DNA from: Phycisphaerales bacterium
GTDB taxonomy: Bacteria > Bacteroidota > Bacteroidia > Chitinophagales > Chitinophagaceae
DNA: 35,243 nucleotides
Reading direction: 5' to 3'
Assembly: GCA_030053995.1 (NCBI GenBank)
Contig: JASGCP010000008.1
Span: 1-35,243, forward strand
The notes under the pieces were generated by a model, which did no database searches, was not told where the DNA came from, and saw only the letters and a list, made by a program, of their open reading frames with translations. Of this stretch, positions 3,730 through 35,243 are shown piece by piece; the first letter of the stretch is position 1; the number at the start of each line of letters is the position of its first letter. The translations under genes were made by a program, and so were the position numbers.

Positions 3730-4759
3730 ATTGGGTTTGTTGGCGTTTTACAGTTGGCGATTCATTTTCTTTTAAAACTTTGCCTATTTCGATTAGTATA
3801 TATTGCAACACATTTATAGAAACACTATTCCCAAATTGTTTATATGCTTGTGTATCTATTGTATTGATCATAAAACTTTCAGGAAACCCTTGTAGTCTTG
3901 CACACTCTTTAGTTGTTAATTTTCTAATTTTTCCATTCACTAAATACAATCCTGTTTTAGAACCTACTCCACCCCCATAAGCTGAGAGTGTAATAGCATG
4001 TCCTAAAATATGATAAATTCTTTCTCCTTGTCCGCCCTTGTTTACCATGCCTATTTGAATAGGCTTATTAGGCAATGCTATTTTGGAAAACAACGAAGTA
4101 GGTGGACTGTAATTTTTATAAATTTCAACATCATTTCTTTCGATTATTTTAACATGTTGGGGGTTAGATTCTAAAATATCTTCTAAACAAATAGCAGTAT
4201 TGGGTGGTATTGGAAACTTAAAGTTTTTTGAATCTATAGAATGGTGAAAACAGGCTATATAAATCCTTTCCCTATTTTGTGGAAGCCCAAAATTACTGGT
4301 ATTCAACACCTTTGTAAAAATATGATAATCTAAATTTTCTAAAGTTTTTATAATAGTATTAAGCGTTTTACCTGCATCGTGTCTGACTAAATTTTTGACA
4401 TTTTCTAAAAGTAGCACTTTAGGTTTATGATGATGTACAATTCTTGCTATATCAAAAAAAAGTGTTCCTCTTGTATCATCAAAACCTTTTTGTTTACCCG
4501 ATATAGAAAATGCTTGGCAGGGGAAGCCACCACATAAAATATCATGTTTCGGTATTTCTATCTCTTGGATATTCGTAATATCGCCAAATGGTTTTATGTT
4601 AAAATTTTCTTGATATGTTTCGGCAGCATATCTATCAATTTCAGAGGCAAAAACACAACGAGCACCTAATGATGTTAAAGCCAGATGGAAACCGCCTATA
4701 CCTGCAAATAAATCAATGAAATCATAATTCTTTAAAGTGTGCTCATCCGTTTGTATCAT
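3722..4759 (-). CDS. HhaI-like DNA cytosine-5 methyltransferase (predicted GCGC)
   Basis: Transfers a methyl group from SAM to C5 of cytosine, protecting the site cut by the adjacent HinP1I-like enzyme. The 345-residue protein has the C5-methyltransferase motifs in order: motif I DLFAGIGG (16-23), motif IV GGFPCQAFS with catalytic Cys81, motif VI ENV (119-121), motif VIII RERIY (163-167) and motif X KQFGNSVSINVL near 310. The target-recognition region carries KGGQGERIY (241-249) and AITLSAYGGG (255-264). As I recall them, these are nearly identical to the M.HhaI segments holding its DNA-contacting Gln237 and Arg240, which supports GCGC specificity. It overlaps the preceding broken methyltransferase gene by 17 bases and the endonuclease gene by 8. 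It looks complete and functional. Confidence 0.95.
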   Translation of the reverse strand: MIQTDEHTLKNYDFIDLFAGIGGFHLALTSLGARCVFASEIDRYAAETYQENFNIKPFGDITNIQEIEIPKHDILCGGFPCQAFSISGKQKGFDDTRGTLFFDIARIVHHHKPKVLLLENVKNLVRHDAGKTLNTIIKTLENLDYHIFTKVLNTSNFGLPQNRERIYIACFHHSIDSKNFKFPIPPNTAICLEDILESNPQHVKIIERNDVEIYKNYSPPTSLFSKIALPNKPIQIGMVNKGGQGERIYHILGHAITLSAYGGGVGSKTGLYLVNGKIRKLTTKECARLQGFPESFMINTIDTQAYKQFGNSVSINVLQYILIEIGKVLKENESPTVKRQQTQYA

Positions 4760-5641
4760 AAACTTGCATTTTTAATGATTTAAGTCGTCTATTTGCAAGA
4801 TCAATATATTCTTGAGAAATGTCATAGCCAATATATTTTCTTTTTGACTTAAGGGCAACAACTCCTGTCGTACCACTGCCCATAAAGGGATCTAAAATAA
4901 TGTCGTCTGTGAATGCATAAAGTTGGATAAGTCTGTAAGGCAATTCTTCGGGAAATGGTGCAGGATGCCGGATTCGTCTTGCACTTTCTGCATTCATTGT
5001 CCAAATTGATTTTGTCCATTCCATAAATTGCTCTTTAGAAATCGTATTCTCTTTGCCATTTTTTCTCGCTTATAGTCACCTTTTGAGAAAATTAAAATAT
5101 ATTCATGTATATCTCTTAAAATTGGATTTGCTACACTCTGCTAACTACCCCAAGCTGTTAAAGGACTCGCACTTGCGGCCTTGTTCCAAATTATCTCTCC
5201 TCTCATATTAAATCCTATATCCAACATCATTTGAGAAAGATGGTCTGAAAGCGGAATATAAGGTTTGCGTCCAAGATTGGCTACATTTATACATGCTCTA
5301 CCACCATTTACCAATACTCTATAGGTTTCTGTAAAAGCATTTTTAAGTACTTTTAAATATTCTTTTAATGATAAATCTTGGTCGTATTCTTTGGAAACAT
5401 TGTAAGGCGGTGAGGTAATCATTAGATGAACAGAATTATCCGGTAACTCTTTCATATTTTCTGCCGACTCCAAAATAATTTCATTTTCTAAATTATCAGG
5501 AAAAAGATTTTCATTTTTGCATAATGCTTTTGGGTCGCCAAGTTCTTTGTACAATTTTGAATTGTAAAACTTTGAACTGTCGTGATTAACTCTTCCGGTT
5601 GTTCCAAAAGTACTAGTTTCTGTACCATTTCTTTTTTTCAT
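4743..5641 (-). pseudogene. Beta-class amino-methyltransferase (N4C/N6A), disrupted by a stop and a frameshift
   Basis: Two open pieces form one DNA methyltransferase with motif order IV then I. The first piece (5141-5641) has MITSPPYNVSKEY, the catalytic SPPY motif, and ends LTAWGS. The second (4743-5024) has ILDPFMGSGTTG, the SAM-binding motif I, and YIGYDISQEYIDLA. Between them the reading frame continues in homologous-looking sequence (ANPILRDIHEYILIFSKGDY) after a TAG at 5141-5143, where relatives usually have Trp. The frame is then lost at a run of six A's (minus strand, about 5057-5062); a seventh A would restore KREKNGKENTISKEQF. Two separate lesions make decay more likely than programmed recoding. 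The start codon overlaps the stop of the upstream endonuclease gene (TAATG), so it was probably its protective partner. Confidence 0.88.
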
Positions 5642-8377: not shown

Positions 8378-9313
8378 CTAAAAGCCATTCTGATTAGCAT
8401 AAGGCCATTTATATTGATTCAAAAATGAAATAACAGCAGGAGCGGTACCGGCTAAATCTAATCCGTTATAATCTAAACTACCAAAAGTTACCTTTGTATA
8501 ATTGGTGATAACAGAAGGAATAGCACCGCTTAAGACATTATGCGATAAATCACAATAAGTTAAATTATTGGGATTAACAGAATTCGTAAAGAAATCTGAT
8601 AAATTCATGTTTACATTAAACAGGCCATTATATGACAAATCAATATGTTGCAAATTGGGGCATACCATAGATATTGTCGCTTCTAATTTTCCTATTCCTG
8701 AACAATGTGATAAATTTAAATACTGTAATGACTGCGATCTTATTGCTAAATTACTCAGAGAACTAATGTATGTATTTGATAAATCTAAATATGCCAAAGG
8801 TCCCTTAATTCCGGTGATACCTAATCCAAATTCTACCTTTCCAGGATTATATGATAAATCAATATGCTGGATACTCGGAAAAAGATATCTAATCGTTATT
8901 AGACCCGATAATCCATTGGGGAATTTTGCTATTGCGTTATGAGAGCAATTAAGATAAGTAAGTTGTTGCAAATAACCTAAGCTATCCGGCAACACCCCAA
9001 CTAAATTATTATTAGGTAAACTAATACTTGTAACATAACCATTTGTAACGGTAATGCCGTACCACGAAGATACTGGTCCAGTTAACCAATTAGTATTATT
9101 TATCCATGATGCACCTTTAGTAGCATTATATAGTTTTACTAATATAAGACTATCTGGCGTATTAACTGCCATCAAATTGTTTGTAGAAGCAACTTTATTA
9201 CCATCAGTCGCCTGATTATTACTAGCAGCATGCGTCATTGCTTTATTACAACTGCTCCAAACGAGCAATGAAACTAAACATACACTTAAAAAAAAGCCAA
9301 AAGAGGATTTCAT
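8378..9313 (-). CDS. Leucine-rich-repeat lipoprotein
   Basis: A 311-residue exported protein. The N-terminus is a lipoprotein signal, with a hydrophobic stretch ending in LVWSSC, which puts the lipid-carrying Cys at residue 22. A low-complexity Asn/Thr/Ala linker follows to about residue 50. The rest is leucine-rich repeats, visible as LTYLNCSHN, IQHIDLSYN, LAYLDLSN, LQYLNLSHC, LQHIDLSYN and LTYCDLSHN. The opening LVKLYNATKGASWINNTNWL is the cap commonly found before plant-type LRRs in bacterial surface proteins. It is probably an outer-membrane-anchored binding protein; its ligand is unknown. It stands alone, with its own promoter and terminator. Confidence 0.88.
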   Translation of the reverse strand: MKSSFGFFLSVCLVSLLVWSSCNKAMTHAASNNQATDGNKVASTNNLMAVNTPDSLILVKLYNATKGASWINNTNWLTGPVSSWYGITVTNGYVTSISLPNNNLVGVLPDSLGYLQQLTYLNCSHNAIAKFPNGLSGLITIRYLFPSIQHIDLSYNPGKVEFGLGITGIKGPLAYLDLSNTYISSLSNLAIRSQSLQYLNLSHCSGIGKLEATISMVCPNLQHIDLSYNGLFNVNMNLSDFFTNSVNPNNLTYCDLSHNVLSGAIPSVITNYTKVTFGSLDYNGLDLAGTAPAVISFLNQYKWPYANQNGF

Positions 9314-34506: not shown

Positions 34507-34580
<74 letters not shown>

Positions 34581-34588
34581 CTTTTCTT

Positions 34589-34625
34589 AAAATAGCATCC
34601 GGATATATCCGGATGCTATTTTTTT
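34589..34625 (+). terminator. Rho-independent terminator after tRNA-Ala
   Basis: A perfect palindromic stem (34589-34603 with 34608-34622, A/T at its base and a GC-rich upper part ATCCGGAT) that ends in a run of seven T's. It starts 9 bases after the tRNA and should end the citrate synthase/tRNA transcript. Confidence 0.9.
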
Positions 34626-34716
34626 AAAGATAACTACTATCCTTGTTCAGACAGTTTTACCATAACAATCAGTGTACCTATGATTCAGGACAAAGGAAAA
34701 TGACCTTTTTTAAGGG

Positions 34717-34746
34717 GGGGCTTAGTTAACCATTAACTAAGTCCCC
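34717..34746. repeat. Hairpin in the gap before the Cys-rich peptide gene
   Basis: CTTAGTTAA (34721-34729) pairs with TTAACTAAG (34733-34741) around a 3-base loop, and the stem extends with GGGG/CCCC past one bulged T. No T run follows. The stretch 34581-34857 otherwise shows no gene. Bases 34691-34709 (GACAAAGGAAAATGACCTT-like) and CTATTTCGTCAT at 34748 resemble parts of the repeat element at 16433-16986, suggesting a degraded copy. Confidence 0.45.
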
Positions 34747-34857
34747 GCTATTTCGTCATCGCACTTACTCTTTAACATTTTTTTAACAAACCATTCATTA
34801 TAAATTGAATCTAATAAGGGAGGACTTATTTTTATTCATTTTTTAATACTTACAATT

Positions 34858-35031
34858 ATGTATTACCATCCAGCATCCAAATTACAGATTATTAACAGAC
34901 AACAACTAAAAAATATTTTTGCAGGTAAGGCTTCGGCTTCTTCTTACAATGATTGTACTAATAAACCTTGTAAGGGTAAGTTAGATTGTTCAGTTTGTAA
35001 TCAAAACTGTAGAGGTAATACCTGTTCATAG
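34858..35031 (+). CDS. Short Cys-rich precursor-like peptide with a double-glycine-type leader
   Basis: An ATG-to-TAG frame of 57 codons. Residues 1-23 end in INRQQLKNIFAG, which fits the Bacteroidota GG-type leader pattern (hydrophobic-x-R-x-x-L-K-x-I followed by GG or AG) that C39-type peptidase/ABC exporters cut. The rest (24-57) is a hydrophilic core with six cysteines at 33, 38, 44, 47, 51 and 56 and many Asn, Lys, Ser and Gly, as in ribosomally made, post-translationally modified or disulphide-bonded peptides. A purine-rich GGGAGGA lies about 30 bases upstream, too far for a normal ribosome site. No modification or transport gene is visible before the window ends 212 bases later. Function as a bacteriocin or signal peptide is inference from the architecture. 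Confidence 0.7.
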   Translation: MYYHPASKLQIINRQQLKNIFAGKASASSYNDCTNKPCKGKLDCSVCNQNCRGNTCS

Positions 35032-35243
35032 TTTGCTTCTACAGTTTAATTAATTCAGGCATAGATTCTTAGCATGCTTGTACTACTCAGTTTTAAGGTG
35101 GTATATTTATTTATTCATCTTTAATAAAATTATTTTATGAAATTATTTTATCACTTGAGTTCTTCGGTAACTATGGGCGAAAGCAAGTTAATTAGTGTCT
35201 GGACGGAAATGACTATTTTTTAGGCATTTTTTTTATTTTGATG
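35032..35243. other. AT-rich stretch to the window edge, no certain gene
   Basis: Nothing firm is seen in these 212 bases. A 28-codon frame opens with ATG at 35137 and stops at 35223, with no supporting motif. An ATG at 35241, preceded by a T-rich stretch, could be the start of the next plus-strand gene, which would lie beyond the window. Confidence 0.4.

Follow-up and report, generated by a model that had tools for sequence, protein, structure and literature searches.

Does a 57-residue open reading frame near the end of a Bacteroidota contig encode a secreted peptide, and if so, what exports and matures its product? The frame, P0001 (34858..35031, forward strand, ATG to TAG), lies in a window of 35,243 nucleotides that makes up the complete contig C155 of its own genome, a MAG of 2,276,483 bases (2.28 Mb) in 203 contigs that is 89.9% complete and 0.65% contaminated. 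Because the window is the whole contig, no sequence is readable past 35243.

The window precursor and its paralogue

P0001 is present exactly as an earlier note on this DNA had claimed, and translates as MYYHPASKLQIINRQQLKNIFAG|KASASSYNDCTNKPCKGKLDCSVCNQNCRGNTCS (leader|core). Specifically, residues 1-23 form a leader that ends F-A-G, with a C39 cut predicted after AG (34858..34926, forward strand), and the remaining 34 residues form a core with six cysteines, predicted to be disulfide-bonded (34927..35028, forward strand). The cysteines stand at residues 33, 38, 44, 47, 51 and 56, a core spacing of 4-5-2-3-4 without a CC pair. The neighbours of P0001 are a tRNA-Ala(GGC) on its 5' side (34507-34581) and citrate synthase.

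No significant match to P0001 was found in Pfam, NCBIfam or the PDB, and no homologue among GTDB genome contigs, viral contigs, plasmids and phages; the A1 profile, run against 100 relatives, returned only weak, noise-like matches outside its own genome. AlphaFold of P0001 alone gave a low-confidence model (pLDDT 69) with a predicted helix at residues 14-22, within the leader, and this model matched no fold in the PDB. The shortness of the frame and the empty searches of Pfam, NCBIfam and the PDB might suggest a chance ORF in AT-rich DNA, but we hold this to be extremely improbable, since a paralogue with a conserved pattern argues strongly against chance, as does a comparison with reversed DNA: in 832 kb of the genome, ORFs of 40-130 residues that combine R..xK..(GG|GA|AG) with at least six cysteines occur 54 times forward and 0 times reversed.

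That paralogue, P0002 (58 residues), lies in a second copy of the P0001 region on another contig (C151:6867-7334; 81% DNA identity over 468 bp). It is 70% identical to P0001 in amino acids and keeps all six cysteines and the FAG ending; no indel separates the two ORFs, whereas their flanks carry several. These observations confirmed that the small gene at 34858-35031 is real. The differences between the two ORFs are spread evenly over codon positions (8/9/10), with dN 0.157 and dS 0.264, so that by itself the comparison of P0001 with P0002 argues weakly for selection at the protein level, dN/dS being moderately below 1.

Directly 3' of P0002 lies P0003, an intact precursor of 66 residues with a leader ending LIGG and eight cysteines. 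Its counterpart in the window is a remnant of 28 residues (35137..35223, forward strand; MKLFYHLSSSVTMGESKLIS..., followed by a stop), 80% identical to P0003 over 20 residues (E 0.0018), in which the leader is kept and the sequence ends where GG and the core would be expected. Hence, the earlier description of P0001 as standing alone behind a tRNA terminator stood in part: the tRNA and, by eye, a perfect palindrome with a T-run after it (34592-34626; not listed by the terminator scan) do lie upstream, but the gene adjoins this broken second precursor and has more than 100 sister genes in the genome. Between the tRNA and P0001, the terminator scan also found a terminator-like 14-pair hairpin, GGGGGCTTAGTTAACCATTAACTAAGTCCCC, at 34716-34746.

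A dispersed family of cysteine-rich precursors

A search with P0003 retrieved further precursors on other contigs of the same genome, and 21 of these were used to build a leader model (A2). A2 matched 131 places across the whole genome at E ≤10, of which 105 remained at E ≤0.1; nearly all lie in open frames. Family counts were drawn from 832 kb of fetched stretches of the genome together with profile searches of the whole of it; in the 832 kb, at least 107 distinct closed precursors scored 11 or more with a core of at least 20 residues, where the best leader score in reversed DNA was 9.8. The precursors are scattered over some 65 contigs. Their leaders, of about 23 residues, end in GG, GA or AG (66, 22 and 4 of the 107, respectively), and a third AG leader, ISRQSLKTVYAG, precedes an eight-cysteine core on contig C44.

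The cores contain 13.5% cysteine, against 1.1% in ORFs of at least 300 residues, and most members have 6-10 cysteines. Cysteine number is even in 94 of 106 precursors (p = 3e-17) and mostly so in the core groups (37/43, p = 8e-7); complete disulfide pairing would give even counts. The exact cysteine spacings number about 100 across the family, and the 4-5-2-3-4 pattern of P0001 was found twice. In most close paralogue pairs the leader is conserved and the core changes faster. Some duplicates, in tandem or at the level of contigs, are recent and in part identical (L102/L103, on C120 and C144; L121:347-1520; L127:2205-2927). Other copies retain a leader without a core (L004:6375-6437, reverse strand; L101:11387-11473; L089:8223-8309), which suggests birth-and-death turnover of precursors.

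P0001 is probably one of these more than 100 short cysteine-rich peptides of a single bacterium, yet its leader is an outlier in the family. It lacks the ..LG..LTR.. part of family leaders, and once P0001 and P0002 are excluded from the leader model it goes unrecognised (score 2.5, rank 246), so that its 37.5-bit score with A2 is circular. Its ending (R..LK.IFAG) has the GG/GA/AG form of C39-exported peptides, although the leave-out model disagrees. We assign P0001 to the family because P0002 has an unambiguous member, P0003, as its tandem neighbour, and because of the R..LK.IFAG motif, the six cysteines and an upstream element. The atypical leader, the broken copy of the second precursor next to it and the even spread of P0001/P0002 substitutions over codon positions would also fit a decayed or non-functional member with real ancestry and no present function; we think this unlikely, given that the frame is open without an indel and has kept its six cysteines, FAG ending and upstream element.

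We read that element as a putative shared promoter or regulator site. In the window it spans 34772..34815 on the forward strand, with two copies of TTAAC 11 bp apart (34772 and 34783) and ATCTAA at 34809, 49 nt ahead of the P0001 start codon. The family consensus is TTTTTAAC-N17/21-TTGTCTAAT (also given as TTTTTAAC-N17/21-GTCTAAT), usually located some 40-50 nt 5' of the start codon, and distances from TTAAC to [GA]TCTAA cluster at 22, 26 and 37. GTCTAA lies upstream of 29 of 107 precursors and 8 of 207 AT-rich controls (p = 5e-9). With leave-out testing, the shuffle p was 0.0045 for the window element and 0.0005 for that of P0002; in the background, 4 of 420 upstream regions scored as high as the window element. 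A cut-off passed by about 2% of background regions is passed by 43 of 107 precursors, a count that includes some precursors on which the matrix was trained. A search for the exact promoter string gave no match, owing to an indel.

The set was found to be the largest of its kind in about 800 related genomes checked. A search of related genomes for the leader motif, as the earlier note had proposed, turned up few matches with A2, at most three per genome in the 60 nearest relatives, and no comparable set in wider samples of the family (396 genomes) and the phylum (395 genomes). These two larger searches may have overlooked small sets elsewhere, because the genome itself shows only 22 matches in them. 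Further, A2 was trained on this genome and misses differently built leaders, which limits the claim to this leader type being expanded only here among the genomes searched. The relatives listed included no second species of the genus, and a literature search, with most subscription papers outside its scope, revealed no bacterium with as large a set of disulfide-core peptides.

Predicted export and oxidation machinery

The genome contains two C39 genes (PF03412), adjacent to each other on contig C113. There, a C39-like/VKOR/thioredoxin fusion (553 residues), a C39 ABC exporter (741 residues), HlyD and an eight-cysteine GG precursor (82 residues) follow in a row (G000:C113:25658-31752; L008:9659-15753), and no five-TM protein was identified at the locus. 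The C39 domain of the exporter keeps DQMDCGPTC; the fusion is without this motif but has WCVFC and CGPC, which would fit a leader-docking oxidase. The C39 ABC exporter expected for GG-leader peptides is thus present once, in trans to nearly all precursors, P0001 included. The expectation that transport genes would lie within 20 kb of P0001 failed as to distance and held as to content: exporter, HlyD and a disulfide-forming enzyme are all encoded, on C113. At about 90% completeness, the assembly may lack a further exporter.

The same fusion is present in 4 of 60 relatives, and also in Mucilaginibacter segetis, M. phyllosphaerae, a Chitinophagaceae MAG and others. The Mucilaginibacter and Chitinophagaceae loci (L157-L162) share with C113 the fusion, adjoining cysteine-rich GG or AG precursors and, provided that the sequence examined extends far enough, a C39 exporter with HlyD; they differ in precursor number, with one to three next to the enzyme there, whereas here one is next to it and about 100 are elsewhere. 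The proposal of a C39-exported precursor with a GG/AG leader is supported by these comparisons: an AG leader with a cysteine-rich core occurs elsewhere in the genome (L029), and an AG precursor adjoins the C39-VKOR gene in a related MAG (L158). Such a fusion beside cysteine-rich precursors is a useful search handle for systems of this sort in Bacteroidota.

The suggestion that P0001 is a RiPP was not supported where the term implies thioethers or radical SAM modifications made by enzymes. No LanC-like protein (PF05147) was found in the 90% complete genome, and its one SPASM radical SAM protein lies on another contig, unlinked to precursors, and matches no maturase family above cut-off. For the family as a whole, enzymatically modified RiPPs (thioether, rSAM or azole) in place of disulfide peptides are very unlikely on this evidence, which covers LanC-like and SPASM proteins; the presence of that SPASM protein and weak matches of 3 of 98 leaders to TIGR04149 (rSAM-modified RiPP; best E 6e-4) speak for them, but the VKOR/thioredoxin protein and the even cysteine numbers indicate disulfides. 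Disulfides, rather than enzyme-made rings, are on those two grounds the likely modification of the cores. P0001 itself has no TIGR04149 match and was not assigned to that class, and a lanthipeptide or prochlorosin class for the family was likewise not supported, with no PF05147 match at 90% completeness.

Hence, we think it likely that the genome encodes a large, dispersed set of precursors served by one C39 exporter/oxidase, whose products are disulfide-bonded secreted weapons or effectors. We infer the cleavage, export, disulfide formation and target of the peptides as follows. The leader would dock on the C39 domain of the C113 ABC exporter and be cut after AG or GG, the cysteine-rich core would leave the cell through this exporter and its HlyD partner, and the C39-like/VKOR/thioredoxin protein would oxidise the core to disulfides. 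One exporter/oxidase would thereby probably serve about 100 structurally different, partly co-regulated peptides. Precursors may arise by duplication, keep their leader, diversify their core and decay, as the remnant at 35137 may have done, and the products would act as weapons or effectors on neighbouring cells.

If this is right, about 1 gene in 20 encodes a secreted cysteine-rich peptide (taking an estimated 2,000 genes), a set that outnumbers the 79 precursors described for the SyncM of a single Synechococcus strain. It would also constitute a natural library of disulfide scaffolds with one exporter and oxidase transferable to E. coli, and would invite the question of what leads a bacterium to diversify its secreted peptides to such an extent.

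Candidate targets and closest known systems

The products are somewhat more likely to antagonise competing bacteria than to act on a eukaryotic host or prey, and a bacteriocin function is possible for P0001. A search for immunity genes among recurrent precursor neighbours produced nothing specific, a result that does not separate bacterial from eukaryotic targets. One alternative is that the peptides are disulfide-stabilised effectors on eukaryotic host or prey cells, with a logic like that of venom or plant NCR peptides, a possibility that we entertain tentatively. It would be in line with the small genome (2.28 Mb, in a family of mostly 3-7 Mb), the expansion of Kelch- and LRR-repeat lipoprotein-like proteins, the roughly 100 different cysteine frameworks and the missing immunity-like neighbours, along with a weak likeness of one core, other than that of P0001, to the conotoxin O-superfamily (PF08087, E 1.8e-4, below cut-off) and to venom peptides (E about 0.1). 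Set against these, the knottin-like C-C-CC-C-C arrangement is not enriched (14, against a shuffled mean of 7.8 and maximum of 16), bacteroidetocins likewise come without immunity genes, and in relatives such genes are few and have not expanded. That the whole would form a venom-like system, with more than 100 partly co-regulated peptides and one promiscuous C39/VKOR machine aimed at a eukaryotic host or prey, is rather doubtful. A knottin or conotoxin framework for P0001 was rejected on its 4-5-2-3-4 spacing without CC and the lack of enrichment over shuffles in the family.

Returning to the favoured reading of a dispersed set with one exporter/oxidase, the peptides are best read, by analogy, as bacteroidetocin-like in export and expanded like prochlorosins. 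Bacteroidetocins are class IIf bacteriocins of Bacteroidetes that kill Bacteroidales; each is a GG peptide of 42-48 residues with four (or at least two) cysteines and a leader of 15-16 residues, whose gene adjoins those for a C39 exporter, a thiol oxidoreductase and a five-TM protein, with no immunity gene (PMC6671954). Both systems, compared by description, combine GG-leader peptides containing cysteines with a C39 ABC exporter and a thiol oxidoreductase, and lack an immunity gene. They differ in that bacteroidetocins have one peptide beside the exporter, whereas here more than 100 are dispersed, with leaders of about 23 residues and mostly 6-10 cysteines; moreover, the oxidase here is a C39-VKOR-thioredoxin fusion, and HlyD takes the place of the five-TM partner protein. 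P0001, with its 23-residue leader, six cysteines and position away from the exporter, was not classed as a bacteroidetocin.

The prochlorosins and synechococsins (ProcA/SyncA) provide the precedent for many precursors sharing one promiscuous machine (PMC10783134, PMC9872173), with 79 SyncA precursors for one SyncM in one Synechococcus (PMC9872173). Like the present family, they pair varied cores with a conserved GG-ending leader, but their lanthionine rings are made by ProcM and their leaders are of Nif11 type, whereas here there is no LanC-like enzyme and disulfides are predicted. Among Bacteroidota or class II leader families, NF047798 (Chryseobacterium bacteriocin-like leader), TIGR04149 and PF10439 gave weak matches to 1-4 of 98 members at E ≤0.01, and the window peptide matches none of them.

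The genome shows two further features of gene content. A family of about 30 proteins is expanded (L084:775-3105 and 29 relatives), one example of which combines six Kelch repeats with a lipoprotein-like N-terminus, and LRR proteins with lipoprotein-like N-termini recur, as in the window at 8378-9313 and at L127:265-1503. Elsewhere in the window (4743-5641, reverse strand), a site-specific DNA methyltransferase is apparently split into ORFs of 166 and 93 residues, and is probably a broken gene.
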